Of a stretch of DNA of 64,000 bases, positions 23,454-39,794 are shown piece after piece. The stretch is from an uncultured Synechococcaceae cyanobacterium. Its GTDB lineage: Bacteria; Cyanobacteriota; Cyanobacteriia; PCC-6307; Cyanobiaceae. A program made the translations under genes and the position numbers. The DNA lies in contig CACAVZ010000003.1 of assembly GCA_902536065.1 (NCBI GenBank), positions 62,001-126,000 on the forward strand, given 5' to 3'. The notes under the pieces were generated by a model. The model was not told the DNA's origin. It did not search any database and saw nothing but the letters and a program-made list of their open reading frames with translations. Every line of letters begins with the position of its first letter. Within the stretch, counting starts at the first letter, position 1.

Positions 23454-23740
23454 ATCTTATTTTACAAAAATAAATCTATCAAGTTTATTAATTTAGAAAG
23501 TTTTAGACCAACTAATTATATTATTTTTATATAATATTTATGAAAAAAAAAATTTGAATTAATTAATTTGATATTTTGAGACAAAAATATAATCAACTAC
23601 ATATAAGCTAAATAGTTAATATTTAAATTAAAAAAAAATATAAAAAACCTGATTAGAGTATTTCTTCTCTAAAAAAGTTATGATAAAATTTTTACTAAGA
23701 AAAGGAAAACTAAATAAAATATTTTTTATAAAAAATCGCG

Positions 23741-24058
23741 ATGCAAAAAAAATTAATAGGAACTTTGAATGAATTAAACAAACATAAACAATTTTCTAGA
23801 TGGGTAAATGATCACGATATATTAGTCTTCTTGAATAAAAATAAAGTAAAAGCAATATCTAATATTTGTCCTCACTTTGGGGGACCTGTTGGATACCATG
23901 AAATTACGGAAGTTAATGGAGAAAAAGTTTTCACTTGTTTATGGCATAACTTGCAATTTAATGTGGATAATGGTGTTTGTACATTACACAAAAATCTTAA
24001 ACTTCGAGAATATGAAGTCATTATTGATAGTGATAATATATTTGTGTATGTAAATTAA
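23741..24058 (+). CDS. Rieske [2Fe-2S] protein, separate N-terminal half of a Rieske oxygenase
   Basis: The 105-residue protein is a stand-alone Rieske ferredoxin-like domain. The cluster ligands are Cys43-x-His45 in CPHFGG and Cys66-x2-His69 in CLWHN. The chain ends right after the last Rieske beta-strand (IFVYVN). One base after its stop, a second gene begins that carries a Rieske-oxygenase catalytic domain, so this is most likely the electron-transfer half of a split oxygenase. It could also be a free ferredoxin feeding the partner. It is in a different frame from the partner and both ORFs look complete. Confidence 0.85.
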   Translation: MQKKLIGTLNELNKHKQFSRWVNDHDILVFLNKNKVKAISNICPHFGGPVGYHEITEVNGEKVFTCLWHNLQFNVDNGVCTLHKNLKLREYEVIIDSDNIFVYVN

Positions 24059-24059
24059 T

Positions 24060-24722
24060 ATGAAATATTTTTTGAAGTCTAAATCAAGTCTCAAAACTAA
24101 TTTTCCAAAAAAATTACTCTTATGGAATTATTGGGATCATGAACATATAGTAGGTACCCATTTTAAACATTATAAAAAAGTAAATATAATTTATGAAGAT
24201 AATAAAACCTGTTTATCAGAAAGATTGGCAAAGCTTCCATATATACCTTTTTACATAAAGACTACTGATTTTGCCATTCTTTTGAATGGAAGCCAAATGG
24301 TTGTATATCACTATGCCTTATTTAACTTATTATTTTGTAAGCAAACATTCTATTTTGAAGAGGATAATAAGGGATATTGCAAAGTAACAAGAATTGACTA
24401 TTTAGAAGTGCCTAGGTTTTTGACTATTCTTCAACCTTTCTTCGACAAAATCATGAGGAAATGGTTTATTGATGTTTGGAAAGAAGATATGCCCATGCGG
24501 AAAAGAAGACTCAGAGTTTGGAAGCTTGGATTCAATGATTTTAGAGGTATTGATTATGTGAATAATCCAGCAGAAAAAAAATTTACTAAACCTATGAGGC
24601 CTTACAAGTTGGAACTCCCAATTGCAAAAATAACTCACGAAAAAAATACAAAATCAGGAAAGGTTTTTTTGAGAAAAATAGAAAAAAGTAAGCATATTGG
24701 TTATGGTTTGCCAAAACTATAA
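24060..24722 (+). CDS. Non-heme iron catalytic domain of a split Rieske oxygenase
   Basis: The 220-residue protein has no Rieske motif but contains Asn23-x2-Asp26-x2-His29-x4-His34 (in WNYWDHEHIVGTH). This matches the D-x2-H-x4-H mononuclear iron site of Rieske oxygenases, where the Asp bridges to the Rieske centre. The third iron ligand would be Asp143 in KEDMP, the usual late acidic position. The remainder fits the SRPBCC/START-like fold of these enzymes. The usual Glu before the Asp is replaced. With the upstream 105-aa protein it adds up to about 325 residues, near the size of a whole small Rieske oxygenase. Substrate unknown; an oxygenase or demethylase role is inferred. Confidence 0.75.
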   Translation: MKYFLKSKSSLKTNFPKKLLLWNYWDHEHIVGTHFKHYKKVNIIYEDNKTCLSERLAKLPYIPFYIKTTDFAILLNGSQMVVYHYALFNLLFCKQTFYFEEDNKGYCKVTRIDYLEVPRFLTILQPFFDKIMRKWFIDVWKEDMPMRKRRLRVWKLGFNDFRGIDYVNNPAEKKFTKPMRPYKLELPIAKITHEKNTKSGKVFLRKIEKSKHIGYGLPKL

Positions 24723-24851
24723 AAATAAAAAATTATTATAAAGTTAAACTTAAAAATCAATTTTATTTTTGAAAAATATATTTAATACACAAAAATTCTA
24801 CGCAAATTTTAATTAATTTATAAAATTATTTATACCTAATATTGCAATTAA

Positions 24852-26318
24852 TTAATTCAAAATTGATCTTTTTGGATATATTAATCTCAAAAATACCATT
24901 ATTTCTATAAATGGTATAAATGCATAAAAATATCTATGTTGCATAGTTCCAAAAATATTTACATAAAGAACAAAATTAGCAAGAAAAGTTAAAAAACCAG
25001 CTACAAATATAGAGTTTTCCCTAATTAAATTTAGATTTTTTTTTGAAAAGATTTTGATGAGATTCAATTCTCTCAAAAATAAAAAAACATCTTTAAAGTA
25101 AAACCAAAAAATCACAGCCCTATATACAAAAAACAATCCCTTAAGAAATAATTTTGCTATTAAAGAAATATCTAAAAAAGATAATTTTGAGTTCACACCT
25201 ACAGAAATAGGCAACCCCCAAGAAGTCAAAGGGTTTAATAATAAAGAAAGATACTTAAAGGTAAACAAAAAGATATTCCCAATTAGTCCATTTTTTTTGA
25301 ATCTTGTTTTTGCAAAATTATTTATTATTTCTTGTTCATCATCTGTAAATCCTTTTTCGTATTCTGGATTTTCTTTCTGCAAAATCTTATTTACTTCTTT
25401 TAAATCTAAATCACTTTTTGAAATAAAGGGATTGTATTTAGTTGAAATTTTGGCGTTTTTCCTATTGCCACTTTCTCTATCATAGATAGGATACATGATT
25501 GATGCATATTCATATTCAGTCAAAACAAAACTAGTTACCCAATTATTTAATGAGCAAACATTGTTCCCCAACTGATTTCCACAACTCTTAAATGGTCTAT
25601 CAGCTCCTAATTTAATATCTCTTAATCCCCAGGGCAAAATTGATATTGTGATAATTAATAAAAACAAGATGGAAAATTTAATTAATTTTTGCATCCCAAA
25701 ATGGACAATTGTAATGAATAAATAAGGAATGACTAAAATTATGGAAGTTGGTTTAATGTAAATATCTAATATTAAATAAGCTAAAATTCTTAATGATATT
25801 GATTTAAAAAATATTGGATTTTTTTTTAATTTAATTAATTCTGTAATTATAAGTATGGTAAATATATATAAAATTGGATCCATGTTTATAAATCTTGAGT
25901 AGCCAATAGATAGTGGTGATAATGAAATAAGTAAACTTAAAATATAAAATTTTTTACCTTTTAAACCCGCCCTATAAAGTACATTTAGTAAATTTACAAA
26001 TGAAAAAGTTGTTAATAATGAAACAAATATAGGTATGAATTTATTACTAAAGCCAATGGACTTTAGAAAATAAATAAAAATATGATAACCAGGAAATGCT
26101 GAACCTATATACGTCTCACATTCTCCAAATGAATTAGTAAATGCAAATCCACATCCTTTACTAATATTATCTACAACCCTAAGGTAATTATAAGAATCAG
26201 TAGTAAAATTTTCAAATAAGAAAATATAAATTAAACGTGGGATAAAAAATATTAAAAATATAATAAAAATCTGTCTTTTTAATTGATAAGATGTTTTAAG
26301 GTTAATTATATTTTTCAT
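24852..26318 (-). CDS. GT-C/PMT-like membrane glycosyltransferase (ArnT/GT39 type)
   Basis: This 488-residue integral membrane protein has about ten to twelve hydrophobic segments. The first loop has TTDSYNYLRV, with an acidic residue typical of the catalytic loop in GT-C enzymes, followed by a large Cys- and Asn-containing periplasmic part (about residues 235-330). Such enzymes move a sugar from a lipid carrier to a surface acceptor. The start codon lies inside a 13-base tandem repeat (see the repeat feature). No neighbour shares its operon; it is divergent from asparagine synthase. The exact sugar and acceptor are unknown. Confidence 0.75.
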   Translation of the reverse strand: MKNIINLKTSYQLKRQIFIIFLIFFIPRLIYIFLFENFTTDSYNYLRVVDNISKGCGFAFTNSFGECETYIGSAFPGYHIFIYFLKSIGFSNKFIPIFVSLLTTFSFVNLLNVLYRAGLKGKKFYILSLLISLSPLSIGYSRFINMDPILYIFTILIITELIKLKKNPIFFKSISLRILAYLILDIYIKPTSIILVIPYLFITIVHFGMQKLIKFSILFLLIITISILPWGLRDIKLGADRPFKSCGNQLGNNVCSLNNWVTSFVLTEYEYASIMYPIYDRESGNRKNAKISTKYNPFISKSDLDLKEVNKILQKENPEYEKGFTDDEQEIINNFAKTRFKKNGLIGNIFLFTFKYLSLLLNPLTSWGLPISVGVNSKLSFLDISLIAKLFLKGLFFVYRAVIFWFYFKDVFLFLRELNLIKIFSKKNLNLIRENSIFVAGFLTFLANFVLYVNIFGTMQHRYFYAFIPFIEIMVFLRLIYPKRSILN

Positions 26319-26354
26319 TATATTTTTTCATTATATTTTTTCATTATATTTTTC
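26304..26354. repeat. 13-bp tandem repeat across a glycosyltransferase start codon
   Basis: The unit CATTATATTTTTT occurs in about three to four copies; CAT (an ATG on the minus strand) recurs at 26316, 26329 and 26342. Because 13 is not a multiple of 3, each added or lost copy changes which ATG is in frame with the gene and moves the upstream spacing. Only the ATG at 26318 opens the long frame. Confidence 0.85.
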
Positions 26355-26437
26355 TTATCTGGAAATAATTTGTTTTCTTTAACATTAAATTATAATGAAA
26401 TAAAATCTATAACATTAATAGAAACAATCTTTGAATC

Positions 26438-28375
26438 ATGTGTGGATTGGCAGGAATAGTTTCAAGTGAAATAAGTGAGGAAAAAAGACATATCATTGTC
26501 TCAAGAATGATGCAATTTATTGAAAATAGAGGCCCTGATGAAAAAATAATTTCTTCATATAAAGATAGTACTTTTGGATTTGCCAGATTATCAATAAGAG
26601 AAATTAATAATGGCAGTCAGCCATTTCTACACAGAAAGAAATCTACATTCTCCATGACAAATGGAGAGGTATATAATTTTGATTATTTAAGAAATAGATA
26701 TTCAAATGAAGAGTGGGTAACAAAATCTGATTGTGAAAGTATCCATAGCGCATATGATAATGGCGATTTCGAAAATGAAATAAAACTTTTTTCTGGAATG
26801 TTTGCCTCTTCTATTTATGATGCGAATGAAAACTCGGTGACACTCCTAAGAGATAGAGTAGGGCAGAAACCTCTTTTTTATTCATTAATAAATAAAAATA
26901 CCTTAATATTTTCAAGTAGTTTAAAAGCAATAATTAGTTCTGGTTTAGTTGAGGTATCATTCGACGAAGAAAATTTAAAATTTATATTGTTTAATGAATA
27001 CGCACCTATTGGATATTCAGGTATAAAAAAAGTTTTTGCAGTTAAGCCTTCCGAAATTATTAATTGGAGAATTGGGACAAGAAAAATTGAAAAAAATGAA
27101 TATTGGAAGTGGATTCTGGGGACAATCGAATTAGAAACAAAGCCGACTTATGCTCCACTAAAAAATCAAATCCATGAAGATCTAATTGAGACAGTTAAAG
27201 AGGAGTTAGTTGCAGATGTGCCAATAAGTATTTTTTTAAGCGGTGGTATAGACTCATCAATAATTGCTGCTTTAGCAGTTGAACAATCCAAATTCGATGT
27301 TGAGACATTCACAATAGGTTTTGAGGATAAAAGTTTAGATGAAACAAAATACTCAAATGAGATAGCAAAAAAGCTTGGCACAAACCATAAATTAATAAAT
27401 TTTGATTCAGAAGACTTTAAAGAGCTAAGCTACAGAGCATTTAAGAATTTAGACATCCCTCTCGGAGATTCTTCCTACATTCCAACATTCTTATTATGCG
27501 AAAAAGTTAGTAAGATTTATAAATGTGCTTTAAGTGGGGATGGCGGCGATGAATTATTAGGAGGATATCCAACCTATAGAGCTCATAAATTTTTAAGTCT
27601 TTATGAAAATTATATCCCTCAAAAAATGAGGGGTTACTTATTGCACAATGTTGTAAAACTATTACCTAAATCAGATATAAATATAAGTTTAGAAATGAAA
27701 CTTTCTAGATTTCTAGCAGGCAAAACTATGCCATTGGTAAAAAGACATTTTACTTGGATGTCTACAACTTATGACAAGTCTGTAATTGATAGAATCATGA
27801 AAAATAAAGTAATAAGTAAAGTTGATTCTTATGATGCCTTGGAAGATTTACTATCTTCGGTGGGGATAAAAGATAAAATTAATGCAGCTCAATTTATTGA
27901 TTTAAATAGTTATCTACCTGGCAGTATTTTGTCAAAACTTGATAATGCATCTATGTCTAATGGTCTAGAAGTTAGATCACCTTTTGTAAATAAAAGAATG
28001 TTAAATGGAACAGGAATGATTCCAAGTTCCTACAAAGTCAGTCTTTTGAGAAGTAAAAAAATCCTTAGAGATATAGCTAAAGATATATATGGGAAAAGAA
28101 TATCAAAACTACCTAAAAAAGGATTAAACTTTTCAGTTGGAAAAACTTTATCTAAAGAATTAGAAAAAAATATAAGGTCATCCCTTTTTTGGTTAGAAGA
28201 TTATATTGATATTGAATACACAAACCAAATAATTGATGAACATTTAACTTGCAAAAAAAACCATAGAAAACTTTTATGGACAATATATTCAGTTGCAAAC
28301 TGGTGGTCAGAAGTTAAAAAAATAGATAAAAAAATTGATAATAGAAACTTATATGAATATAAAAAATACGATTAA
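26438..28375 (+). CDS. asnB: Glutamine-hydrolysing asparagine synthase family protein
   Basis: The 645-residue protein begins MCGLAG, so Cys2 is the class II glutaminase nucleophile, followed by ENRGPDE near residue 30 and NGEVYN near 74. The synthetase domain has the ATP pyrophosphatase loop SGGIDSS near 268 and SGDGGDELLGGYP near 375. It forms amide bonds from glutamine-derived ammonia. Members in polysaccharide clusters often amidate sugar or sugar acid groups instead of making free asparagine, which fits this surface-sugar neighbourhood. Which applies here is not decided. It is convergent with the GtrA gene, with stops overlapping. Confidence 0.9.
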   Translation: MCGLAGIVSSEISEEKRHIIVSRMMQFIENRGPDEKIISSYKDSTFGFARLSIREINNGSQPFLHRKKSTFSMTNGEVYNFDYLRNRYSNEEWVTKSDCESIHSAYDNGDFENEIKLFSGMFASSIYDANENSVTLLRDRVGQKPLFYSLINKNTLIFSSSLKAIISSGLVEVSFDEENLKFILFNEYAPIGYSGIKKVFAVKPSEIINWRIGTRKIEKNEYWKWILGTIELETKPTYAPLKNQIHEDLIETVKEELVADVPISIFLSGGIDSSIIAALAVEQSKFDVETFTIGFEDKSLDETKYSNEIAKKLGTNHKLINFDSEDFKELSYRAFKNLDIPLGDSSYIPTFLLCEKVSKIYKCALSGDGGDELLGGYPTYRAHKFLSLYENYIPQKMRGYLLHNVVKLLPKSDINISLEMKLSRFLAGKTMPLVKRHFTWMSTTYDKSVIDRIMKNKVISKVDSYDALEDLLSSVGIKDKINAAQFIDLNSYLPGSILSKLDNASMSNGLEVRSPFVNKRMLNGTGMIPSSYKVSLLRSKKILRDIAKDIYGKRISKLPKKGLNFSVGKTLSKELEKNIRSSLFWLEDYIDIEYTNQIIDEHLTCKKNHRKLLWTIYSVANWWSEVKKIDKKIDNRNLYEYKKYD

Positions 28376-28767
28376 TTCTTATCCTTTTGATAAATAAATT
28401 GTCCCCATATATAACCACTCAAGCCAGACACTATTAATAAGAAAATTGCGACAACTCTAACTTCATATATCCAATAAGTTAATCGAGTCATAATTAAAGC
28501 TACCAGAAAAATTGGTATTACATGAAAAAGAAATTTCTTAAAACTTACTGAATCATTATTAAAAACCCACTTCTTGTAAAGAAAATATTTAAGCAAATAT
28601 CCAGTTGGATAAATTATAATTATTGCATTAGTTCTTGAAACATACTGAGACAAAAATATAAAAATCAAAGGAGTAGCAAGAGTATATATTGAACCTACAA
28701 AACTGTATCTAACGAGTGATCTGTTGACCAATAATTTCTTCAAATAAAATAATTTATTTCTCCTCAT
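28372..28767 (-). CDS. GtrA-family membrane protein
   Basis: The 131-residue protein has four membrane segments and the GtrA pattern: RYSFVGSIYTLATPL at the N-terminus (residues 20-35) and YFLYKKWVF near 62. GtrA-like proteins are thought to flip or present undecaprenyl-linked sugars to membrane glycosyltransferases. The nearby GT-C and GT2 enzymes fit that role. The C-terminal GYIWGQFIY matches the family end. Confident family call; partner not known. Confidence 0.85.
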   Translation of the reverse strand: MRRNKLFYLKKLLVNRSLVRYSFVGSIYTLATPLIFIFLSQYVSRTNAIIIIYPTGYLLKYFLYKKWVFNNDSVSFKKFLFHVIPIFLVALIMTRLTYWIYEVRVVAIFLLIVSGLSGYIWGQFIYQKDKN

Positions 28768-29103
28768 AAGGATTAGTAAAAAAGATAAATTTTTGAATAG
28801 TATTAATGTGGGATTAATAAAAATATTATCTCCGACAATAAAAACAAATCAATATTAGAAGATTAATATATTTTTTTAAATATCTTATTAGAAACTATCT
28901 TAATTTATGAATATAGTAAGTTCAAATAACTCCATCTGTTTACATGATCTAACAAAAGTAATTAGATCATGAAAAAGCCCTTAATAGCAATAGATTATAG
29001 GGTCTAGCGTATTTCATCTTTTTAACTATTTTTGTTGATAACAATATCTGATGATGTTAAAGTAAGCTAAGTTTTTAAGTTTTTACCCAACAAATTAAAA
29101 TCT
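28768..29103. other. AT-rich divergent intergenic stretch with an inverted repeat
   Basis: This gap separates the GtrA gene from the divergent radical SAM gene and must hold both promoters. The visible structure is CATGATCTAA at 28943-28952 and TTAGATCATG at 28962-28971, a perfect 10-base inverted repeat with a 9-base spacer. No T-run follows on either strand, so it is more likely an operator than a terminator. No ORF of note is present. Confidence 0.5.
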
Positions 29104-30192
29104 ATGAGCTTTGGAGAAATAAAAAATTCACTTAATTTTTTTCGCTCATATTTTTCAAAATACCCTTCATATTTAATACTATTTGTAACTGCTAGATGTA
29201 ATGCGAGATGCAAGCATTGTTTTTACTGGGAAGAGATTGAATCTTCAAAGGCTCAATTAGAAATGAAAATAGCCGATTTTAATAAAATTGCAAAAAGCTT
29301 AAATTTGATTTACCTCTCAATTGGTGGTGGAGAGCCATTTATAAGGAATGACTTACCAGAAATTATTAAGTGTTTTTACGATAAGTCGAATTTACAATAT
29401 TGCAATATAGTAACTAATGGTTTTTATACCGAACGAACAATCCGCGATGTAAAAGAAATAAGAAAACTCTGTCCAAGTATAAAACTTAAGATCCAAATAT
29501 CAATTGATGATTTTGAAGAAGAACATGATGAAAATAGAAAAGTTGAAGGAATTTATATGAATGCTATTAATACATTAAAACAACTTTCAAAAATCAGAGA
29601 ATCAGATAATTACCTTAATATAGATATTGCAACTTGTATGACAAAAACAAATAAAGAAAGAATTACCCAACTTTACGACCACCTAAGGGGTGGCAATAAC
29701 TTCGATGACTACCAAATTTTATATCCTAGGGGAAATGCTAAAGATGAGCATGAAAAAGAAGTTGATGCAGATGAATGGTGGGAATCTCTACAACATATAC
29801 AGAAGCGGTCTTTTCAAAAGAATCACAATCCAATCATTCCTGCTGTAAATCGAATAGCTAAGCAAGGTATTTATAAGTTTCTTAAAAGTGGAGTTCAATC
29901 ATGGGATTGTCTGGCAGGAAGAAAGTTTATCTCAATCACAGAACAAGGCGTTCTCCAACCTTGCGAGGTACTCAATCAAATAGAACCAGAGCTTGACTCT
30001 GATATGGCTATATTAAAAAATTACGATTTCAATGTTCGTAAAGCAATTGATTCGAAAAAAGCTCTCGAAACAACTAATTGGATCAAAAAGAACAAATGTA
30101 GTTGTTCCTTCGAGTGTGCAGCAAGCTGTAATGTTGCTTTCACGAAGAAAGAGGCTCTAAAGGCTTTAAAGTTAAGATTATTTAATGAATAA
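29104..30192 (+). CDS. Radical SAM protein with SPASM-like C-terminal cysteines
   Basis: The 362-residue protein has the radical SAM cluster motif CNARCKHC (Cys 32, 36, 39), then GGGEPF near residue 77 and NGFYT near 103. The C-terminal part has further cysteines (DCLAGRKF, PCEVL, KCSCSFECAASC), as in SPASM/Twitch domains that hold extra iron-sulfur clusters. Such enzymes modify peptides, sugars or cofactors. It overlaps the GT2 gene by 8 bases, so the two are coupled. Island location and coupling favour a sugar-modifying or small-peptide role. Substrate unknown. Confidence 0.85.
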   Translation: MSFGEIKNSLNFFRSYFSKYPSYLILFVTARCNARCKHCFYWEEIESSKAQLEMKIADFNKIAKSLNLIYLSIGGGEPFIRNDLPEIIKCFYDKSNLQYCNIVTNGFYTERTIRDVKEIRKLCPSIKLKIQISIDDFEEEHDENRKVEGIYMNAINTLKQLSKIRESDNYLNIDIATCMTKTNKERITQLYDHLRGGNNFDDYQILYPRGNAKDEHEKEVDADEWWESLQHIQKRSFQKNHNPIIPAVNRIAKQGIYKFLKSGVQSWDCLAGRKFISITEQGVLQPCEVLNQIEPELDSDMAILKNYDFNVRKAIDSKKALETTNWIKKNKCSCSFECAASCNVAFTKKEALKALKLRLFNE

Positions 30193-31204
30193 ACTTAAGC
30201 TCAGCGTAGTAGTAATTTGCTGCAATGAAGAAAAGTATATTGAAGAATGTCTCTTCTCACTTGCTTCTCAAAATTACCCATCCTCTTTATTTGAAGTTCT
30301 AATCATAGAAAATGGCTCGACAGACAAAACTCAAGAGTTAGTTAAATCCTTCATAAAAAACTACTCAAATATGCATCTAATCATTTCAGATGTTTGTGGT
30401 ACTGCAGTAAATCGTAACAGAGGACTATTTGAAGCCAATTCTAATTTTGTAGCTTTTATTGATGGAGATTGCACTGCTGAAAAGGACTGGCTACTTTCAT
30501 TAGAAAAAGGTTTCCGGGAAGAAAATAATAAAAACGATCGAATTGCTGCAATTGGAGGGCCAAATATCATACCAAAAAACGCAAATTTTTTTAGAAAAGC
30601 TCTTTCAATAGCAGTATCAAATTACTGGGGTAATTCAGGATCTCTTCAAGCAGCTATCTTCAAATCAAAGCGGGTTTTAGTCGAACACATACCTACATTA
30701 AATGTTCTTTACGATAAAAATAAAATTTTAGAGATTGGTGGATTTGATGAGAGTACTGGAAATTGCGGGGAAGACTTTGATCTTAGCCATCGACTAAGGT
30801 GGGAAGGATATCTTTTAATCTATGACAGTAAGGCAGTTGTAAGGCATCAGTGGCGTAACACATTTCCTTCATGGGCAAAAAATATGAAGCTATATGGTAA
30901 ATCAACTATGTTATTAGTTTTTAAAAATCGACGTTTCATGAAAGTAAAGTACTTGGCCCCATTTGTTGTACTTCTTTCTGCACTCTTATCTCTATTTAAT
31001 TCAATAAATCATCTCTTGGCATTGCCATTTATCATTTATTTATTGGTCACAATATTAATTTCTTTTTATGCATGCTTTATTAAAAAAAAGCCAAAGTATC
31101 TCTTATTTGTTTTTTTAATATACTTAACGACACATATTTCCTATGGAGTCGGCCAAATTCATGCACTTATAGTTACTCTTAGTTCTAAAATAAGAACTAG
31201 TTGA
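30185..31204 (+). CDS. Family 2 glycosyltransferase with C-terminal membrane anchor
   Basis: The 339-residue protein has the GT-A fold of family 2: VVICCNEEKYIEECL at the N-terminus, IIENGSTDKT near residue 40, the metal-binding FIDGDC near 92, then GGFDEST near 180 and GEDFDLSHRLRWEG near 190. Two or three hydrophobic segments follow from residue 253 to 330. It probably adds a sugar on the cytosolic face of the membrane. It starts inside the end of the radical SAM gene. Confidence 0.9.
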   Translation: MNKLKLSVVVICCNEEKYIEECLFSLASQNYPSSLFEVLIIENGSTDKTQELVKSFIKNYSNMHLIISDVCGTAVNRNRGLFEANSNFVAFIDGDCTAEKDWLLSLEKGFREENNKNDRIAAIGGPNIIPKNANFFRKALSIAVSNYWGNSGSLQAAIFKSKRVLVEHIPTLNVLYDKNKILEIGGFDESTGNCGEDFDLSHRLRWEGYLLIYDSKAVVRHQWRNTFPSWAKNMKLYGKSTMLLVFKNRRFMKVKYLAPFVVLLSALLSLFNSINHLLALPFIIYLLVTILISFYACFIKKKPKYLLFVFLIYLTTHISYGVGQIHALIVTLSSKIRTS

Positions 31205-31220
31205 CATTTTTTTTAGATTA

Positions 31221-31481
31221 GTGGAATCTTCTAATAAAAATATTAGAACAAATAAAATATATTGGATCTTAGGAATAATGGCTATTAATATGGGAGGTAT
31301 ATATATTTTTGGAGCAGTTACTCTTTTAGGAAGGAATGAAGATTATAAGAATATAAAAAAAGCTAAATGTGAATCTGATTTTTATGCTCAATTAGCAATT
31401 AGAAAATATGGTAGCCATGACTCAAAATATAAAAATGCTTTAACAAAATGTATCAAAGAGGGGAATTTCTTGATGCCATAA
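31221..31481 (+). CDS. 86-aa small membrane protein
   Basis: The ORF starts with GTG at 31221, 16 bases after the GT2 stop. It has one membrane span at about residues 13-37 (WILGIMAINMGGIYIFGAV) and a polar basic C-terminal part with two cysteines (KAKCESDFY and LTKCIKEG). No family recognised. Being third in a radical SAM-GT2 group it could be an accessory or a substrate of those enzymes, but there is no direct sign of a leader-core peptide. Confidence 0.6.
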   Translation: MESSNKNIRTNKIYWILGIMAINMGGIYIFGAVTLLGRNEDYKNIKKAKCESDFYAQLAIRKYGSHDSKYKNALTKCIKEGNFLMP

Positions 31482-31876
31482 CAGTGGACCGAATCATTTG
31501 AACCAATTATCACAGCCCATGTACTGAATTATTAGACACTTGGGAAATCATTAAGACTTAATGATTCTCTCATAATTTTTTATTACCAATTTTCTATGTT
31601 TGATGTCAGTAAACTGTATGAATTTGCTTTGACTAAATCATCCTTAAGCTAAAACAAAATTTAGAGATGAGGTGTAAAAGTGTGAATTGTCAACGACCAA
31701 ATAAATATCTAGAGGGGAGGTAGGATGGTTTGAGGCTTTAGTCTTGAAAGCTAGATTTTGTTTTAGTTATACCAGCGTTTTGGAAAATAACTTGACGTGC
31801 AGTTCCGGATCAGTTCCGAAAAATTTAACCATCTTTTGATATAATTAAAAAGCTAAAAATTAAATATTTTTCGCCT
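31482..31876. other. Gene-free stretch before tRNA-Ser with inverted repeat and tRNA relic
   Basis: No intact gene is seen. Three items stand out: a perfect 10-base inverted repeat at 31546-31566 (AATCATTAAG / CTTAATGATT, one-base spacer) with a T-run about 7 bases on, a possible terminator of the upstream unit; a decayed copy of the tRNA-Ser 5' half (separate entry); and a TATAAT at 31840-31845, a likely -10 element for the intact tRNA gene. Confidence 0.5.
31712..31754 (+). pseudogene. Decayed partial copy of tRNA-Ser(UGA), 5' half
   Basis: The segment GAGGGGAGGTAGGATGGTTT and the next bases through TCTTGAAAGCTAG follow the intact tRNA-Ser at 31877 base by base, with scattered changes, covering the acceptor 5' strand, D arm and anticodon arm. 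Similarity stops after the anticodon stem, with no variable arm, T arm or acceptor 3' strand. This looks like a remnant of a duplicated tRNA gene, as left by integration at a tRNA site. Confidence 0.7.
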
Positions 31877-31963
31877 GGAGGGGTGGTCGAGTGGTTTAAG
31901 GCTCTAGTCTTGAAAACTAGCGTGTCTGCAAGGGCACCGTGGGTTCGAATCCCACCCCCTCCG
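31877..31963 (+). tRNA. tRNA-Ser (anticodon TGA)
   Basis: This is an 87-base class II tRNA. The acceptor stem GGAGGGG pairs with CCCCTCC; the anticodon loop CTTGAAA sits in a CTAGT/ACTAG stem, giving anticodon TGA; a long variable arm follows (GTGTCTGCAAGGGCAC), then the T arm with GGTTCGAATCC. The discriminator base is G. CCA is not encoded. TATAAT lies about 32 bases upstream. It marks a point of genome variability: a degenerate copy lies just upstream and accessory genes sit on both sides. Confidence 0.97.
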
Positions 31964-32053
31964 TTCTAATTACGAATCAGGAAAATTAATTGATTCAGAG
32001 AAATGCTTTACTGTTAAATTGATGAAATCCTTAGGGCTAGCAAAATAGATATT

Positions 32054-32869
32054 ATGCTTTCAAAAAACGAATTTATTCACTTATCAAAGAAACTTCGGAG
32101 AAGAATAATTGAAGTATCTGCAAATGCAAAAATACCTCATCTAGGTTCATGTTTGTCGTGTATTGATATTCTTGTTTATCTTTATTGGTCTGTTTTGAAA
32201 ATCGATCCCGCAGATCCTTTAGATCTAAATAGAGATAGATTTATATTAAGCAAAGGTCATGGAGCTCCTGCCTTATTTCAAGTTTTAGCTGAAAAAGGGT
32301 TTTTTCCCTTAAAAGATTTAAATGAATTTGGCAAATCAGGTAGTTTTTTTCATGAGCATCCGCCAAAGCCTGGATATATAAATGGGATAGAAGCTGCTAC
32401 TGGTTCATTAGGCCATGGTTTACCTATGGGTTTAGGAATGGCTATTTCAGCAAAGATTCAAGGGAAGGGTTTTAAGACCATTGCATTATTAAGTGATGGA
32501 GAATGTAATGAAGGAAGTATATGGGAGGCAGCCTTATTGGCTCCTTGTTTAAAAGCAGATAATTTAATTGCGATAATTGATTACAACAAATGGCAAGCCA
32601 CTGGAAAGAGTAAAGAAATTATGGCTTTAGAACCATTTTTTTCAAAGTGGGAATCTTTTGGATGGCATTGTCAAGAAATTAACGGCCATGATTTTTTTGA
32701 AATTGAAAATGCATTTAAACGCATTAAAGATATAAAAGATAAACCTCATATGATTATCGCTCACACAATCAAGGGGAAAGGTATTAGTTTTATGGAGGAT
32801 AATAACAATTGGCACTATAGGACTCCTAATAAGGAAGAATTAGAGAGTGCTTTAAAAGAAATAGAATAA
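32054..32869 (+). CDS. Transketolase-like enzyme, N-terminal (TPP-binding) subunit
   Basis: The 271-residue protein is the first half of a split transketolase. It contains SKGHGAPALF near residue 72, GSLGHGLPMGLGMA near 117 and the TPP/metal motif SDGECNEGSIWEAA near 150. The partner subunit starts 20 bases after its stop. Two-subunit transketolases are common in secondary and surface-sugar pathways, transferring a two-carbon unit. The housekeeping cyanobacterial transketolase is a single ~670-residue chain, so this pair is likely specialised. It begins about 90 bases after tRNA-Ser. Confidence 0.9.
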   Translation: MLSKNEFIHLSKKLRRRIIEVSANAKIPHLGSCLSCIDILVYLYWSVLKIDPADPLDLNRDRFILSKGHGAPALFQVLAEKGFFPLKDLNEFGKSGSFFHEHPPKPGYINGIEAATGSLGHGLPMGLGMAISAKIQGKGFKTIALLSDGECNEGSIWEAALLAPCLKADNLIAIIDYNKWQATGKSKEIMALEPFFSKWESFGWHCQEINGHDFFEIENAFKRIKDIKDKPHMIIAHTIKGKGISFMEDNNNWHYRTPNKEELESALKEIE

Positions 32870-32889
32870 CATTATGTATCAATTTTAAA

Positions 32890-33813
32890 ATGAGAAACAC
32901 ATTTGCCAAAGTAATAACTGAACTAGCTGAAATAGATGAAAAAATAGTCTTACTTTCTGGAGATATTGGTAATAGAATGTTTGATGACTTTAAAAAAGTT
33001 GCAAAAAAAAGATTTATAAACTGCGGAATAGCAGAAGCAAATATGATGTCAGTTGCATCAGGATTAGCACTAACTGGAATGAAACCTTTCATATATACAA
33101 TAGCTCCTTTTACAACTTCAAGATGTTTAGAACAGATAAAAATTGGAGCTGCTTACCATAATACTAATATCACAATAATTGGGACAGGTTCTGGCTTATC
33201 CTATGCTGAATTAGGACCAACTCATCATTCACTTGAAGATATAGGTATTATTAGCTCTATACCAAATATGAGAGTTCTTGCTCCTTGCGACTCAATAGAA
33301 TTAGAAAATCAAATTAGAGAAATTATTAATTTAGACGGACCCTCATATATTCGAATTGGAAAAAAAGGAGAACCAAATTTGCTTGATCATAATAAAGTTA
33401 CAAAAATTGGTAAGGCTGAAATAATTAGGGATGGTAGGGATTATTTAATACTTGGAGTTGGACCTATCCTTGCAGAGGCATTAAAAGCAAGAGAGTTTTT
33501 AGAGAAGAATCATGATATAAGTATTTGTATCGCAAGTTTGGGTAGTGTATGTCCTTTAGATTTATCGTTTTTAGAAGAAATGACCAAAAGAAATTTCAGG
33601 CACTGGTTTACATTAGAAGAGCATTATTTGAAAGGTGGATTAGGTTCAGGAATTAACAACTGGTTGATAAAATCTCAAAACATTTACAATATAAAAATTA
33701 AAAATATATGCGCTCCTAATGAATTTATACATAGACTTGGAAATCAATCCTTCACTAGAGATATCCTGAAATTAAATTCTAAAGGCATAGTTGAAATGAT
33801 TATTAAGCAATGA
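32890..33813 (+). CDS. Transketolase-like enzyme, C-terminal subunit
   Basis: The 307-residue subunit holds the pyrimidine-binding and C-terminal domains: LLSGDIGNRMFDD near residue 20, GIAEANMMSVASGLA near 43 with the catalytic Glu that activates TPP, GPTHHSLEDI near 108 and LEEHYLKGGLGSGI near 240. With the previous gene it forms one thiamine-diphosphate enzyme. Its stop overlaps the start of the HAD gene (ATGA), so the cassette is translationally coupled. Confidence 0.9.
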   Translation: MRNTFAKVITELAEIDEKIVLLSGDIGNRMFDDFKKVAKKRFINCGIAEANMMSVASGLALTGMKPFIYTIAPFTTSRCLEQIKIGAAYHNTNITIIGTGSGLSYAELGPTHHSLEDIGIISSIPNMRVLAPCDSIELENQIREIINLDGPSYIRIGKKGEPNLLDHNKVTKIGKAEIIRDGRDYLILGVGPILAEALKAREFLEKNHDISICIASLGSVCPLDLSFLEEMTKRNFRHWFTLEEHYLKGGLGSGINNWLIKSQNIYNIKIKNICAPNEFIHRLGNQSFTRDILKLNSKGIVEMIIKQ

Positions 33814-34409
33814 CTAAAATTGGAATTGATTTTGATAATACAATTGTTTTTTATGATGATTTATTTCACAAAATTGCTACAGAGGAAAAACTTATTCCTT
33901 CTAATTTCCCAAGTTCTAAGTTACTTATAAGAGATTATTTAAGAAAAAGAAATAAAGACGAATTGTTTACTTTATTGCAAGCAGAAGTATATGGCAAAAG
34001 AATTCTAGAGGCTTCTCCAGCGCCAAATGTAGATTTAGTTATAAAAAAAATAATTGATATTGGTTTTGATGTAAGCATAATTAGTCATAAAAGTCTAAAT
34101 CCATACAAAGGTCCTAAGTATAATCTTCACGAAGCGGCAATGTTATGGCTTGAAAAAAATGAATTTTTTGAAGATAAAAAGGTAGGATTATCTAAAAAAA
34201 ATGTCTTTTTTAATTTAACTAAAGAAGAAAAGGTTAACAAAATTGAGGAAATTGGATGTGATTATTTTATTGATGATTTACCTGAAATATTAAACCTTAT
34301 AAATAAAAGAACAATAAAAATTTTATATAGTCCTATAAATAATTACAACCAAAATGATTTTATTATTTTAAAAAAGTGGGATGACTTAATTAAAGTTCTA
34401 GATTCGTAA
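33810..34409 (+). CDS. HAD-superfamily phosphatase-like protein
   Basis: The 199-residue protein opens with GIDFDNTIVFYDD, the HAD motif I with the nucleophilic Asp and the +2 Asp (DxD). It continues with ISHKS (motif II) near residue 90 and the DYFIDDLPE motif IV near 150. It probably removes a phosphate from a small metabolite, perhaps the transketolase product. It overlaps the transketolase subunit gene by 4 bases and is 1 base from the kinase gene. Substrate unknown. Confidence 0.8.
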   Translation: MTKIGIDFDNTIVFYDDLFHKIATEEKLIPSNFPSSKLLIRDYLRKRNKDELFTLLQAEVYGKRILEASPAPNVDLVIKKIIDIGFDVSIISHKSLNPYKGPKYNLHEAAMLWLEKNEFFEDKKVGLSKKNVFFNLTKEEKVNKIEEIGCDYFIDDLPEILNLINKRTIKILYSPINNYNQNDFIILKKWDDLIKVLDS

Positions 34410-34410
34410 A

Positions 34411-35376
34411 ATGATAGAAAAAAAAAATTTATCTAAAGCGGAAAAACATTTAAATAGTTTTGGTTATAAAAATATAATTTTTAAAAAAATAAACTATGGA
34501 ATTAATAGTTCCTCATGGAAGGTATTATCTGAAAAAAAGAAATTCTTTCTTAAATTTTACTTAAATTCAAACAATGATAAAAGAGATCGTATAGGGGCAG
34601 AATTAAAATTTATAGAACTACTTGAAGAGGGGGGTTTTAGAAATTTTCCTAAAGTAATCCTAACTAATAAAAAAGATAATTGGACTTTATTTGAATGGTT
34701 AGAGGGCACCAAAGTTAGCCGACCAACTTTGAAAGATTATGAGGCTTTAATCTTTTTTTTAAAAAACATACAAAACTTAAAGAGTTTTGAAAAAGCAAAA
34801 TATATTGGCTATGCATCTGAAGCTTGTTTTGATTTAATTGATCATAAAAACCTTATTATTAAAAGGTTAGAAAATATTATTAAATTTTCTAGCGGCGAAG
34901 AAAAAACATGGTTAAAAATTGAGGTATTAGAGTCTATAAAGAAATGTGAAAAAACTTTTGAAAAATATTTTTCCTTAAGTTCAACAAATTCCTTTTATAA
35001 AGGGGTAAAAATTTTATCTCCCTCTGATATTGGTTTTCATAATATTTTGAAAATAAAAGATAAATATTATTTTCATGATTTTGAATATGCTGGTTGGGAT
35101 GATCCTTATAAATTAATTGTTGATATACTTATTCAACCTGAAAATGTCTTGAATAAAGATATATCTATGAAGGTATTTAAATCACTTGAATCTTGCTTTA
35201 AGATTAATAACAATTTTGAATTTTTGAAAGTATATTTAATTCTCTATAGAGCTAAATGGGTAAGTATAATTTCAAAAAAAATTATTGAAAGGGATTTAAA
35301 TCCATTGGAGAAGAAATCTTTAATACAAAAAAGTTTTGAATATTTTAATCTAGTTGGGGAAATATGGAAGATCTAG
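34411..35376 (+). CDS. APH/choline kinase-like small-molecule phosphotransferase
   Basis: The 321-residue protein shows the aminoglycoside phosphotransferase-like kinase fold: the nucleotide lysine in FFLKFY near residue 47, the hinge FEWLEG near 94, the catalytic loop SPSDIGFHN near 205 (Asp and Asn of the usual HxDxxxxN, with Ser in the His place) and the metal-binding HDFEYAGWDDP near 222. It likely phosphorylates a sugar or polyol hydroxyl. Its close spacing to the HAD gene suggests one pathway. Substrate unknown. Confidence 0.78.
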   Translation: MIEKKNLSKAEKHLNSFGYKNIIFKKINYGINSSSWKVLSEKKKFFLKFYLNSNNDKRDRIGAELKFIELLEEGGFRNFPKVILTNKKDNWTLFEWLEGTKVSRPTLKDYEALIFFLKNIQNLKSFEKAKYIGYASEACFDLIDHKNLIIKRLENIIKFSSGEEKTWLKIEVLESIKKCEKTFEKYFSLSSTNSFYKGVKILSPSDIGFHNILKIKDKYYFHDFEYAGWDDPYKLIVDILIQPENVLNKDISMKVFKSLESCFKINNNFEFLKVYLILYRAKWVSIISKKIIERDLNPLEKKSLIQKSFEYFNLVGEIWKI

Positions 35377-35510
35377 ATATAAGGTTTTCAGAAGTATTAA
35401 TAAAATTTTATTCCAAATTAATTGGAATTATTCAAATCTTTTTTATAATTTTATGTAGTAAGAATAAATGCAACTTATTAATATTAAAACTGAATTAGTC
35501 CTATGTATTT

Positions 35511-35912
35511 ATGAATATAAGTAATCTGAATCAAGAAGATTTTAATCAGCTCATGAATGAGGCTGTATTATCTCCAAAAAAAATATCAAGAAAGATATTA
35601 CATTCAAAAAATTCAGAAAAAATGCAATGTATGTTGATAGCTTTTGCTCCAAATAATTATTATGATTTTATAGCCGATAATCTAGAGGGCAATATTATAT
35701 TCTGCTGTATTAAAGGAAATATGGAAATAAACTATTTTGATCAAAAAATTAATTCGATTAAAAAATGCTCTAAATTAAATTCTGGTGATTTATTAGTAAT
35801 TCCAAGAAATTATTTTCGCTCCACAAAAGTTTTTCAGGAGGGCGCAGTTTTCTTAGAATCTATAGAAGGGCCATACTTAAAAGAAAAAAGAATTAAATTT
35901 AAACAAAAATAA
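35511..35912 (+). CDS. WbuC-like cupin protein
   Basis: The 133-residue protein resembles the WbuC cupin family found in O-antigen clusters: the N-terminal LMNEAVLSPKKISRKILH segment, a beta-rich middle with IKGNMEINYFDQ near residue 70 and SGDLLVIPRNYFRS near 93. The usual metal-binding HxH is replaced (NNYYDF), so it may not bind metal. WbuC proteins have unclear roles in surface polysaccharide production. It follows the kinase by 134 bases and could belong to the same unit. Confidence 0.6.
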   Translation: MNISNLNQEDFNQLMNEAVLSPKKISRKILHSKNSEKMQCMLIAFAPNNYYDFIADNLEGNIIFCCIKGNMEINYFDQKINSIKKCSKLNSGDLLVIPRNYFRSTKVFQEGAVFLESIEGPYLKEKRIKFKQK

Positions 35913-36436
35913 ATTTTGAATTAGATATTTATTTTATAACTTAATTTATTCTCTTAAATATAAATTTTTCCATTCAAGCTTTTTTTGAAATACATTAAAA
36001 TTATTAGAAGTGATTAAAAATTAAAAACCTGAAATGACTAGGAATTAGTCTAAAATCAGAAAATTTTGAAAAGACTAAAAATTAAGCCTAATTTTTAATA
36101 TCAAATGTAATAAAAGAGAAATAAATGAACTGGATAATAATATTTATCGACATATTGCAAATCTAATAATTAAAGGGTAGTGATATTCTCTTATATAATA
36201 TTAGGAGTTGATGAAATTATTTAATAACTATAAAATTGCTTTTTATTTAAAAGTTAAATTAGATTAGGAATGGAAAAACAATAATAAAAACAAGAATATT
36301 TTTTATAAGTTTTAATAGTTTTAATAGTCTCAAAAATTATCTAAGGAAATATTTGTAAATTTCTTTAAATAAAGTTTTTATTAAAAGATAACTTAATAAT
36401 GAGATATTAAACGCTTATGTTTCTTGAAATATAACT
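35913..36436. other. Long AT-rich gene-free stretch
   Basis: No convincing gene is found in these 524 bases. It holds short repeats such as ACTAAAAATTAA, TTTTAATAGTTTTAATAG (36311 region) and a small hairpin GACTA-GGAAT-TAGTC near 36036-36050. It separates the plus-strand cassette from the convergent minus-strand methyltransferase module. It may be decayed sequence, but nothing identifiable is left. Confidence 0.6.
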
Positions 36437-37642
36437 TCAGGGTAATATCGGTCTTATTATAGGCCCATTGAATCCAGAATTTATTAATTTTTCTCTAATC
36501 AAATCAAAGTATTGCCAAGCTAATATTAAAACCACAGTTTTTTCTTCATTAAAAAGAATATTTTTATCATATACTTTCAAAGATGTTCCAGGCATATAAA
36601 GTCCAAATTTATCTTGATTTTCGTCTACTAGATATTCTATATAATTTTCTAAATCAAAATTCTTAACTAAAATACCTGTACTATGAGAAGCTCCAAAACC
36701 AACTATCTTAAATTTTTTAATCCTGTAAAAATCTAATTTCTCTTTTAAAGAAGTTTTTGATACTTGAATTAATTTTTCAAGACCTTTAATCTCAATTTCT
36801 GTTGAAAATCTCTCTAGATTAAAGTTTATACTGGATTTATTCTCACAACCTTTTTCTAAATAAAATCTAATAGTACCTCCCCTTAATTCAGAAATTATAT
36901 ATTTTGATATTTTTAGGCCTGATCTTTTACATAATCTTTTCATTGAATTTATGTTAAAATATGAATAATGTTCATGATAAATGTAATCAAATAAACCTTT
37001 AGAAAATTGAAGAGGATGATATCCAGTTTGTATAATAATCCGAGAATCTGAATCCTTCATCATTAACTTAGCTGTCTGGAGTGCTTTCAAAGGGTTATTC
37101 ATATTAGCTAAAACATTATTAAAGGAAATAAAATCAAATTTCTGACAAATTTCACTCTCTTTTAATAACTGAGTCAAATTCTCGTCAAAATATGCATTTA
37201 TTGTTCGCCTACCTATTTTATTTGCATATTTTGCTACTGAATCCGCTGGTTCTACCCCTATTGCATTAAAACCTAAACTTGAACAAGCCTCTAAAAATGA
37301 ACCATCATTGCTACCAACATCTAAAATATCTATACTTTTTTGATCTTTACGAATAGATAATAATGATCTTGCATATTCTAAAAATGAACTTGTTAGTCCA
37401 GGAGTAACTTTAGAGTTATATAAATATTTTGTGTAAGACTCCTGAGGAGGGACTTGAATACCTAATTGAAGATGACTACATTCACTGCAGTAATAAAGTT
37501 CTAAAGGGTAATTTTTCTTTTTTAAACTAATATCTAATGAAGGAGAATATAAATCAGTGAGAGGTGAATCAACCAACTTCAATATTTTATTAATATTTTC
37601 AGAATTGCAGCATAAACATTTAATTTTTAAGTTTTCATTCAT
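36437..37642 (-). CDS. Sugar C-methyltransferase-like SAM enzyme with zinc-binding N-terminus
   Basis: From the ATG at 37642 the protein has 401 residues. An N-terminal zinc-binding part has CLCCNSENI near residue 8 and CSECSHLQLG near 50; a SAM domain has DVGSNDGSFLEA near 105; and a C-terminal GFGASHSTG domain near 310 completes the layout of NDP-sugar C-methyltransferases (TylC3 type). These add a methyl to a keto-deoxysugar on its nucleotide. An upstream ATG at 37690 would add 16 hydrophobic residues and is less likely, since family members start just before the CxxC. It is in a module with another methyltransferase and an epimerase. Confidence 0.82.
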   Translation of the reverse strand: MNENLKIKCLCCNSENINKILKLVDSPLTDLYSPSLDISLKKKNYPLELYYCSECSHLQLGIQVPPQESYTKYLYNSKVTPGLTSSFLEYARSLLSIRKDQKSIDILDVGSNDGSFLEACSSLGFNAIGVEPADSVAKYANKIGRRTINAYFDENLTQLLKESEICQKFDFISFNNVLANMNNPLKALQTAKLMMKDSDSRIIIQTGYHPLQFSKGLFDYIYHEHYSYFNINSMKRLCKRSGLKISKYIISELRGGTIRFYLEKGCENKSSINFNLERFSTEIEIKGLEKLIQVSKTSLKEKLDFYRIKKFKIVGFGASHSTGILVKNFDLENYIEYLVDENQDKFGLYMPGTSLKVYDKNILFNEEKTVVLILAWQYFDLIREKLINSGFNGPIIRPILP

Positions 37643-37845
37643 GGAGAAATTTAAGGCTATCTTTTTTCTGATGAGCAAAAGAACTATCAAGAAAGGCAGA
37701 AATAATAATATCTTTTAGGAGATGAAAGCTTTTATTTACCTTCAAAAGTATATCATTTTCTTAAATAATATTACTTTATAGTGAATAAGAATTATCCTCA
37801 AATTAGTTAGTAAACTAATGTTAACTTTTTATGTTTTATACTATT

Positions 37846-38949
37846 TCATAATTTAGGAGCATTATTAAAAATTGAGTAAACATTCTTAAAATTATATTCA
37901 CTAATTAAAGAATTCTTAAATTTTTCACTGTATCGAGGATGAACTCCCAATAGAATTACAGTTTTTAAGGGATCAATATTTTTTTTATTGCTTGAAATTC
38001 TAATATCACAATTGGCAATAAATTTACCTTTTTTATTAGGGGAATCATCAAATAAGAAATGAATCTGATCTTTTGTATTTGTTAATTGTAAAAAACGGTC
38101 ACTATTATGGCCAATACCAAATATTGCAATTTTATAAACTGAATTTCTTATATACTTCTTCCAAGAATTAAGGTATTCGTCAAAAATCTCAAAATTGAAG
38201 TTTTGCTTTTTTTTATTAGTATTAGCGCTTAATTTCTTAATATTATCATCAACTAAATCAGATTTTTTAAGTATAAAACATAAGCTTGGTTCCATTAAAT
38301 ATTTTTCAGAATAAGTTTCAATACTATTCCAACCTTTATTAAGAAGCCAATCTGATAGGCTACTAAATGTAAAATACCATCTGTGTTGTTCCCATAAAAA
38401 AAGAGGGTTTTTATTACTTATAAATTGACTACAATCTGGTACTTCTAAAAATAAAATTCCTTGATCATTTAAATTTTGATTTAGTTTTCTCATGAGTTGA
38501 TCTATATTCTCAAAGTGTTCTAAATAATGCCTAATTATTATTAAGTCATATTTAATTTTTAATTCTTTTAAACTCTCGAAAATTATTTCTTCAGTTTTAT
38601 TTTCTACATGATCTCCAATCAATCCCCTTGTAATAGAAAATAAACAATCTATATTTGAGTTTTTTTCTTTTAATCTATTTGCTAAAGAAATATCTTTATA
38701 TGAAAAGCATAAAATATTTTTTACTGATTTAATACTTTTTGTTATTTTAATTGCAACCATATCTAAATGATCTTCTGGTTCGTTTGACTCAGACCATCCA
38801 GTTTCTGGTTTTAAAAGAGTAAAGGGTATTATGTTTTTTTGCCTAAGCAAACCATTTTCCTCAGATAGTTCTAATTCAAATGTTTCAGCTGAAAATGAGT
38901 CTTTATTATCCTCATAAAGGTTGCCAGTAGGACTATAGAAAAACTTCAT
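37846..38949 (-). CDS. SAM-dependent methyltransferase-like protein, two-domain
   Basis: This 367-residue protein has a class I methyltransferase-like middle: NILCFSYKDISL near residue 80, YDLIIIRHYLEHFENI near 135 and GILFLEVPDCSQF near 165. The SAM glycine loop is poorly kept (no GxGxG), so activity is uncertain. The C-terminal part has IAIFGIGHNSDRF near 273, a nucleotide-binding-like segment similar to the end of sugar C-methyltransferases. It overlaps the epimerase gene by 4 bases (coupled). A role in sugar decoration is inferred from the neighbours. Confidence 0.65.
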   Translation of the reverse strand: MKFFYSPTGNLYEDNKDSFSAETFELELSEENGLLRQKNIIPFTLLKPETGWSESNEPEDHLDMVAIKITKSIKSVKNILCFSYKDISLANRLKEKNSNIDCLFSITRGLIGDHVENKTEEIIFESLKELKIKYDLIIIRHYLEHFENIDQLMRKLNQNLNDQGILFLEVPDCSQFISNKNPLFLWEQHRWYFTFSSLSDWLLNKGWNSIETYSEKYLMEPSLCFILKKSDLVDDNIKKLSANTNKKKQNFNFEIFDEYLNSWKKYIRNSVYKIAIFGIGHNSDRFLQLTNTKDQIHFLFDDSPNKKGKFIANCDIRISSNKKNIDPLKTVILLGVHPRYSEKFKNSLISEYNFKNVYSIFNNAPKL

Positions 38950-39794
38950 AAACTTTCATTCAAATAATTATCTATTGCTTTATGGGGAGAAGTAAAACTA
39001 AAGTCTTTAATTATAGTTTTTAATTTAGCATTATCATATGAATGATTCACAGGAATGCCTGTTCTATCTAACTCTATAATTTTACATTCAATTATTTTAG
39101 AAATATATTCTGCAATACTTCGGTAAGAAAAACTTTTGCCACTAGCAATATTGAAAATCCCGAAATAATCACTTATACATAATTTAATTATAATATTTGC
39201 AGCATCTTCTAATAGGATAAATTCTCTTTTTTCATTTCCAGCACCCCATAATTTTATAATCTTATTTTTCTGTGCTGAATAGACAAACCCCCCAGGATGA
39301 TAACCATTTATGTCTTTGATATCATAAATAAGTGGGGGTCTAATAATCAATAATCTTTGCTTATCAATTAACTGGGTATATAAGATTTCACTTTGAAGTT
39401 TATGTTCACCATATTTACTAGTAGGTATAAGATTACTATTTTCATTAAATTTATATTGATTATTTTTCTCTCCATAAACAGCACATGAAGATAGGTAAAC
39501 TACTTTTGATATTTGATCACATAAACAATAAGATAAATTTTTAGTTATTAAATCGTTATATTTTTTTATTTCATCACTATCTCCTTGCTGTCTTTTTATT
39601 GAAGCCAGAATAATGATAATATTTGGATTTATATCTTTTATTCTTTTTTTTATTGAAGATATATTGGCCTCCCTTGATAAGTCAATATCATTTTTATCTA
39701 AATTAAAAACATTAAATTTTCTACTTTCTTTTAATATTTCTGATATTTTGCTCCCAATAAGACCATTTCCTCCTAATAGTAGAATTGTATACAT
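38946..39794 (-). CDS. NAD-dependent nucleotide-sugar epimerase/dehydratase (extended SDR)
   Basis: The 282-residue protein has the Rossmann start LLLGGNGLIGSKI (GxxGxxG) at residues 5-17, LSSCAVYG near 100, the active-site Tyr and Lys in SKYGEHK near 125, and the IRPPLIY segment near 150. It would oxidise, epimerise or reduce an NDP-sugar; substrate unknown. Its stop overlaps the next gene, and it is the first of the three-gene module with the two methyltransferases. Confidence 0.88.
   Translation of the reverse strand: MYTILLLGGNGLIGSKISEILKESRKFNVFNLDKNDIDLSREANISSIKKRIKDINPNIIIILASIKRQQGDSDEIKKYNDLITKNLSYCLCDQISKVVYLSSCAVYGEKNNQYKFNENSNLIPTSKYGEHKLQSEILYTQLIDKQRLLIIRPPLIYDIKDINGYHPGGFVYSAQKNKIIKLWGAGNEKREFILLEDAANIIIKLCISDYFGIFNIASGKSFSYRSIAEYISKIIECKIIELDRTGIPVNHSYDNAKLKTIIKDFSFTSPHKAIDNYLNESL

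Follow-up and report, generated by a model that had tools for sequence, protein, structure and literature searches.

We found a pair of adjacent genes in the window, i.e., the whole 64,000-nucleotide stretch of DNA from an ocean cyanobacterium analyzed here, that is likely to encode a Rieske-type non-heme iron oxygenase divided between two proteins. The gene structure, its conservation, the invariant ligand set, the predicted fold, the genomic setting, and the horizontal acquisition of the pair are supported by the present analysis; metal binding, the complex, the electron path, the activity, and the substrate class are inferred. The two-gene Rieske oxygenase is apparently a design that has not been described so far, as no divided or reverse-order Rieske oxygenase was found reported in the open-access literature, with subscription papers not covered.

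The Rieske gene, ORF1, is followed directly at its 3′ side by the catalytic-type gene, ORF2, with a single base (24059) between the ORF1 stop and the ORF2 start and the ORF2 frame shifted by +1. This confirmed the description in the original prediction, made from the sequence alone, of two genes of 105 and 220 codons lying one base apart in different frames. The Rieske signature CxH...CxxH assigned to ORF1 was likewise present (C43-P-H45 and C66-L-W-H69) and supported by a Pfam Rieske match (E 6e-12; score 45.7 bits, cut-off 20.3), so that ORF1 qualifies as a Rieske domain with CxH and CxxH, the ligands being invariant in 13 homologues. The iron-site motif assigned to ORF2 reads N23-Y-W-D26-H-E-H29-I-V-G-T-H34, plus the late D143 in VWKED143MP.

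Table 1. Positions of the gene pair, its putative ligands, and the surrounding island in the window, and of the single-chain relatives in their own loci
Feature	Position	Strand	Basis or remark
Insertion of 8.4 kb directly upstream of tRNA-Ser, with the pair as its first genes	23464..31874		Absent in near relatives
Rieske [2Fe-2S] subunit gene (ORF1), compact, soluble-ferredoxin-like, 105 aa	23741..24058	+	Pfam matches; upstream partner at all loci
Rieske ligands C43-x-H45	23867..23875	+	CPHFGG invariant, 13 homologues
Rieske ligands C66-x2-H69	23936..23947	+	C66, W68, and H69 invariant, 13 homologues
Stand-alone mononuclear-iron catalytic subunit gene (ORF2; predicted, helix-grip, SRPBCC-type), 220 aa	24060..24722	+	Model, homologues
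D26-x2-H29-x4-H34, putative bridging Asp and two iron-ligand His	24135..24161	+	Invariant in 17/17 catalytic domains
D143, putative third iron ligand, in long C-terminal helix	24486..24488	+	Invariant in 17/17; helix 119-155 in model
Multi-pass membrane protein without a Pfam match, resembling a glycosyltransferase by eye	24852..26318	-	Homologue beside pair in Pelagibacterales L001-L004
Asparagine-synthase-like amidotransferase	26438..28375	+	Homologue beside pair in L001-L004 and L015
Radical SAM protein	29104..30192	+	Homologue beside pair in L002-L004
Family 2 glycosyltransferase	30185..31204	+	Homologue beside pair in L002 and L003
tRNA-Ser(TGA), island anchor	31876..31964	+	
Reversed single-chain Rieske-oxygenase-like proteins, SAR11	L031:1393-2358; L032:1390-2388; L033:1357-2376		

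Relatives of ORF2 were sought across 84,980 species, each represented by one genome, and were found at 15 loci (27-69% identity by blastp), 11 of them in Pelagibacterales, two in Bacteroidetes, and one each in Myxococcales and Nitrospina. In all 15, a separate Rieske gene lies immediately upstream of the catalytic gene on the same strand, the order always being Rieske and then catalytic (the Rieske start of L009 is lost at a contig end, and L004 contains some ambiguous bases). Because the two-gene set also occurs in four other bacterial groups, we regard it as a stable design and not as a broken gene. The original prediction had named as its refutation the case in which all relatives are fused and this copy alone is interrupted; the outcome was the opposite. 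Purifying selection acts strongly on both genes (pN 0.20-0.28 versus pS 0.61-0.81 against the Pelagibacterales homologues), and the two co-diverge, the Rieske and catalytic protein distances being correlated at r = 0.946 (Mantel p 5e-5, 13 loci).

These observations bear on two trivial explanations of the division. One base of spacing and different frames are what would be left if this genome had once encoded an ordinary fused Rieske oxygenase that was recently broken by a frameshift or stop. However, the loci in the four other groups are divided too, with varied spacing and a start of its own for each half, selection acts on both genes, and no fused relative in the canonical order was found among the genomes sampled. 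A frameshift or pseudogene was therefore rejected, practically without reservation, as the original prediction had anticipated in calling the pair no recent frameshift. Alternatively, programmed frameshifting or read-through might join both frames into a conventional fused enzyme, for which the very short spacing in the window and at L001, L002, and L003 would be suitable. Across the loci, however, the spacing runs from a 17-base overlap (-17) to an 11-base gap (+11), including overlaps of 14 and 17 bases at some loci, and the relative frames of the two genes are +0, +1, or +2 depending on the locus. Since frames and spacing differ in this way, no common slippery element is possible, and the division is explained neither by a frameshift common to the loci nor by programmed slippage; we see hardly any room for the latter explanation either, and rejected it.

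A profile built from the ORF2 homologues (A1) detected three further SAR11 proteins of ~320-340 aa, L031 at E 4.5e-13 and L032 and L033 at ~1e-6, in which the catalytic domain is N-terminal and the Rieske domain C-terminal in one chain. The two weaker matches were kept because both combine the iron motif, in alignment, with a Rieske domain in a single chain. In the reciprocal search, a profile of the three reversed proteins found the divided catalytic gene of G063 at E 7.9e-9. The joining of homologous domains in three SAR11 genomes provides a Rosetta-stone argument that both parts work together. The only single-chain relatives found thus carry the domain order opposite to that of the textbook; searches that took in 1,993 genome slots turned up no Rieske-first homologue, but these searches were samples, and the absence is no proof. 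Canonical Rieske oxygenases are present in many alphaproteobacterial genomes. Matches of A4 to L092 and L093 (Bacteroidetes; E 5e-5 and 5e-4) were dismissed as chance, with the motif absent and the ORFs unrelated.

The catalytic proteins of the divided type, 14 in number, share without exception the block W22-N-Y-W-D-H-E-H29, H34, W140, E142, D143, R149, R150, and a few other residues. Adding the three reversed relatives, which are only 19-21% identical, reduced the invariant set of the resulting 17 domains (mean identity 33%, minimum 15%) to N23, D26, H29, H34, F64, D143, R149, and R150, and five of these eight (N, D, H, H, and D) make up the Rieske-oxygenase iron site. GxtA/SxtT uses D161 as the bridging aspartate and H164, H169, and D280 as ligands (PMC7293229); the Asp-to-Asp distance of 119 residues (D161-D280) compares with 117 in ORF2 (D26-D143). 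The pattern of a 2-His-1-carboxylate site with a bridging aspartate is accordingly fulfilled in 17/17 domains, as a pattern of sequence only, with metal binding being inferred. The invariance, the GxtA/SxtT-like spacing, and the predicted fold together support the original reading of D26, H29, H34, and D143 as an iron site.

The family of ORF2 could not be assigned by sequence. ORF2 has no match in Pfam, NCBIfam, or the PDB sequences, none of the 17 members of the catalytic family belongs to a Pfam family, and an hmmsearch of the PDB with A1 gave nothing. A profile-profile comparison with VanA-type catalytic domains aligned only the motif and was not significant, so a sequence-profile link to these domains was rejected, and ORF2 cannot be placed by sequence in Ring_hydroxyl_A, VanA_C, or another known family of catalytic domains. 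An AF2 model of ORF2 from 14 sequences (core pLDDT mostly 76-94, pTM 0.70) adopted a helix-grip fold in which the motif occupies the helices that follow strand 1 and D143 lies within the long helix at the C terminus. Within the core, confidence was lowest for residues 21-40, around the motif (pLDDT 58-67). The model matched dicamba monooxygenase (3gke) with a VIA Z of 14.7 and an rmsd of 3.4 over 164 aligned residues, placing model residues 3-189 on 134-326 of the chain. As far as a predicted model allows, ORF2 thus has the helix-grip fold both of an oxygenase catalytic domain and of the SRPBCC superfamily.

The model also matched GxtA and, at equal Z, START, PR-10, and aromatase/cyclase proteins, which share the helix-grip fold and bind no iron; the fold alone is therefore no proof of an oxygenase. 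This leaves the possibility that a soluble Rieske ferredoxin and a non-oxygenase SRPBCC protein, ligand-binding or cofactor-free (e.g., a cyclase, carrier, or sensor), merely share an operon, with the histidines and aspartates serving otherwise. The equally good structural matches, the lack of an oxygenase family match for ORF2, and the soluble-ferredoxin character of the Rieske half would all agree with it. However, the exact oxygenase ligand set plus the conserved asparagine is retained throughout at identities of 15-33%, its spacing agrees with that of the oxygenases, and the partner is always a Rieske protein, never another redox protein, and is fused in three relatives. We consider this possibility unlikely. 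The case for a divided oxygenase is made by the fold, the ligand set, and the Rieske partner taken together.

Judged from its sequence, ORF1 is at least as similar to the soluble Rieske ferredoxins as to the Rieske domains of oxygenases. It matched Rieske_4, the soluble Rieske ferredoxin family, at E 9.7e-10 (39.2 bits, cut-off 28.4), as did 9 of the 13 Rieske family members at E <= 0.01, and its PDB matches were 3d89 and dioxygenase ferredoxins. With its 105 aa and a Rieske_4 score above the cut-off, it also meets the definition of a small single-domain soluble Rieske ferredoxin. The Rieske domain of oxygenases is thought to be derived from a ferredoxin and to have acquired an insertion through which it touches the neighboring subunit (PMC12445004). 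Both a pre-fusion relic and an independently assembled enzyme would be compatible with a compact ferredoxin-like partner, which does not decide between them. The Rieske partners at L007:5558-5959 and L013:5564-5953 carry ~26 extra residues after CxxH that are absent from the compact versions and may correspond to the oxygenase-type insertion.

The original proposal of a Rieske oxygenase divided into two working proteins was supported, with the activity and association of the proteins being inferred only, and is refined in two respects. The single-chain relatives that were found have the opposite domain order, and "split" is perhaps the wrong word. Since the Rieske half is as ferredoxin-like as oxygenase-like and the catalytic half has no derivation from a known fused family that is detectable by sequence, the two may never have been one chain.

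To model the two proteins together, ORF1 and ORF2 were joined as one chain with the stop plus one base read as Gly, purely as a modeling device. The top 50 Foldseek matches of this joined model were all Rieske oxygenases (~280-350 columns, best E 2.4e-11), with both domains matched. Each domain was confident and their mutual placement was not: with a pTM of 0.60 and an rmsd of 15-17 Å to known oxygenases over both domains, the relative placement is not modeled and gives no support for an interface. It is thus also conceivable that ORF2 is a true Rieske-type iron oxygenase forming its own oligomer, with ORF1 acting only as an upstream ferredoxin that docks transiently without a stable complex. 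The compactness of ORF1, its closeness to the soluble Rieske ferredoxins, and the missing interface speak for this, whereas the co-divergence, the constant adjacency, and the one-chain relatives favor a dedicated partner, although they do not demonstrate a stable complex. We give this reading a small chance.

In the divided oxygenase that we favor, both proteins would be made together from one short operon. ORF2 would hold a mononuclear Fe(II) via H29, H34, and D143, and ORF1 would dock on it with a cluster histidine against D26, the putative bridging aspartate providing the electron path from the Rieske histidine to the iron. Docking of this kind would place the Rieske cluster ~12 Å from the iron, like the contact between neighboring subunits of the classical trimer. 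In the classical enzymes, the cluster-to-iron distance is 44-45 Å within a subunit and ~12 Å to the neighbor, so that electrons pass between chains (CntA, PMC7948474; PMC7293229). With classical transfer already running from one chain to another, no covalent link is required. ORF1 would then pass one electron to the iron, and activation of O2 would lead to oxidation of a glycan or lipid precursor, the substrate probably being a sugar nucleotide, a lipid-linked sugar, or another surface-polysaccharide precursor that is hydroxylated or otherwise oxidized. In Pelagibacterales, the product may be methylated subsequently by the methyltransferase encoded just downstream. No dedicated reductase gene was found near any copy; the cellular ferredoxin-NADP reductase is a plausible electron source.

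The substrate class is suggested by the genomic neighborhood. Most copies have glycosyltransferases, nucleotide-sugar enzymes, NeuB, or methyltransferases in their vicinity. In L001-L004 and L006, the gene after the pair is of the Methyltransf_23 type, as is the one after the reversed fusion L031. Few such neighbors were present at L010-L012 and L014 within the stretch read, so the assignment to surface glycans is an inference of moderate strength. The neighbors shared with Pelagibacterales (Table 1) are 24-32% identical to their homologues, versus 60-69% for the pair itself. Elsewhere in the window (32054-33813), a transketolase-like enzyme is specified by two genes (products of 271 and 307 aa) within a surface-polysaccharide island and followed downstream by HAD-like, APH-like kinase, cupin-like, and C-methyltransferase genes, a set that may build an unusual branched sugar.

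The 8.4-kb tRNA-Ser island with the pair was acquired horizontally. Near relatives whose nrdJ protein is 97-98% identical lack ~23464-31874, which bears out the placement of the pair at the edge of an accessory island, and also lack ~31971-40046 downstream of tRNA-Ser; the pair forms the first transcription unit of the upstream insertion. With insertions flanking tRNA-Ser(TGA), the locus looks like a tRNA-anchored integrative island. A decayed copy of the 5′ part of this tRNA lies at 31708-31754, ~120 bases upstream of the intact one. Near the same tRNA-Ser site, another genome of the genus (L090; G009 C7:36500-55100) has a different island with, by eye, a tyrosine-integrase-like gene and a large replication-type protein. 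A phage, viral, or plasmid origin of the pair was rejected, as no relatives were found in IMG/VR or the phage and plasmid collections, PHROGs giving at best E 0.006. Of the 251 genomes of the family, one carries the pair; in addition, there is a single decayed remnant. The latter, in a complete genome of the same genus (L035, G015; ~1620-1692, minus strand, with stops, WLEDLPIKIRRQKVLNMNFKD), resembles the other, L011-like subfamily and adjoins an O-antigen-polymerase-like gene. An intact pair together with a decayed L011-like remnant points to at least two acquisitions, that of L035 being a second, lost one.

We further propose, tentatively and with somewhat less than even confidence, that the pair represents a separate Rieske-type oxygenase lineage made of a free ferredoxin and a free iron helix-grip protein, which became fused independently and in reverse in some SAR11. 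If this is true, neither a covalent link nor a Rieske-first order is required for this chemistry, and the oxygenase was assembled more than once or its pre-fusion state survives here. The divided pair is a candidate for the pre-fusion state of Rieske oxygenases, and the natural division together with the reversed fusion offers a direct test of whether link and order matter for electron transfer. Ecologically, the distribution points to an oxidative tailoring of surface glycans common to SAR11 and Prochlorococcus, both of which are under heavy phage pressure. A separable iron subunit of ~200 aa with an exchangeable electron donor would also aid engineering, for which the matching of redox partners has been named as a limit (PMC12445004).

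Characterized Rieske oxygenases have both domains in one alpha subunit with the Rieske domain N-terminal (PMC7293229; reviewed in PMC12445004). By this one-chain definition the pair does not belong to them, the domains being separate in the window and the 15 relatives and reversed in the other three. It nevertheless shares with the alpha3 oxygenases (GxtA/SxtT, dicamba monooxygenase DdmC, and KshA) the Rieske CxH/CxxH, a helix-grip catalytic domain, and N-x2-D-x2-H-x4-H with a late Asp at nearly the spacing of GxtA, and these enzymes are its best full-length structural matches; unlike them, it consists of two proteins, or of one reversed chain in distant relatives, and its catalytic part has no sequence-family match. 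ORF1 is compact and free like the soluble Rieske ferredoxins (BphF/CarAc/T4moC type, Rieske_4, and human RFESD, 3d89), but ferredoxins of the BphF/CarAc/T4moC type feed oxygenases that have a Rieske domain of their own, and ORF2 has no second one. ORF2 in turn shares its predicted helix-grip fold with SRPBCC/START proteins such as the aromatase/cyclases and PR-10, which, unlike ORF2, have neither the invariant iron-ligand set nor a linked Rieske gene. The pair thus works, as inferred, like a Rieske oxygenase, yet it is not a classical member of that family.
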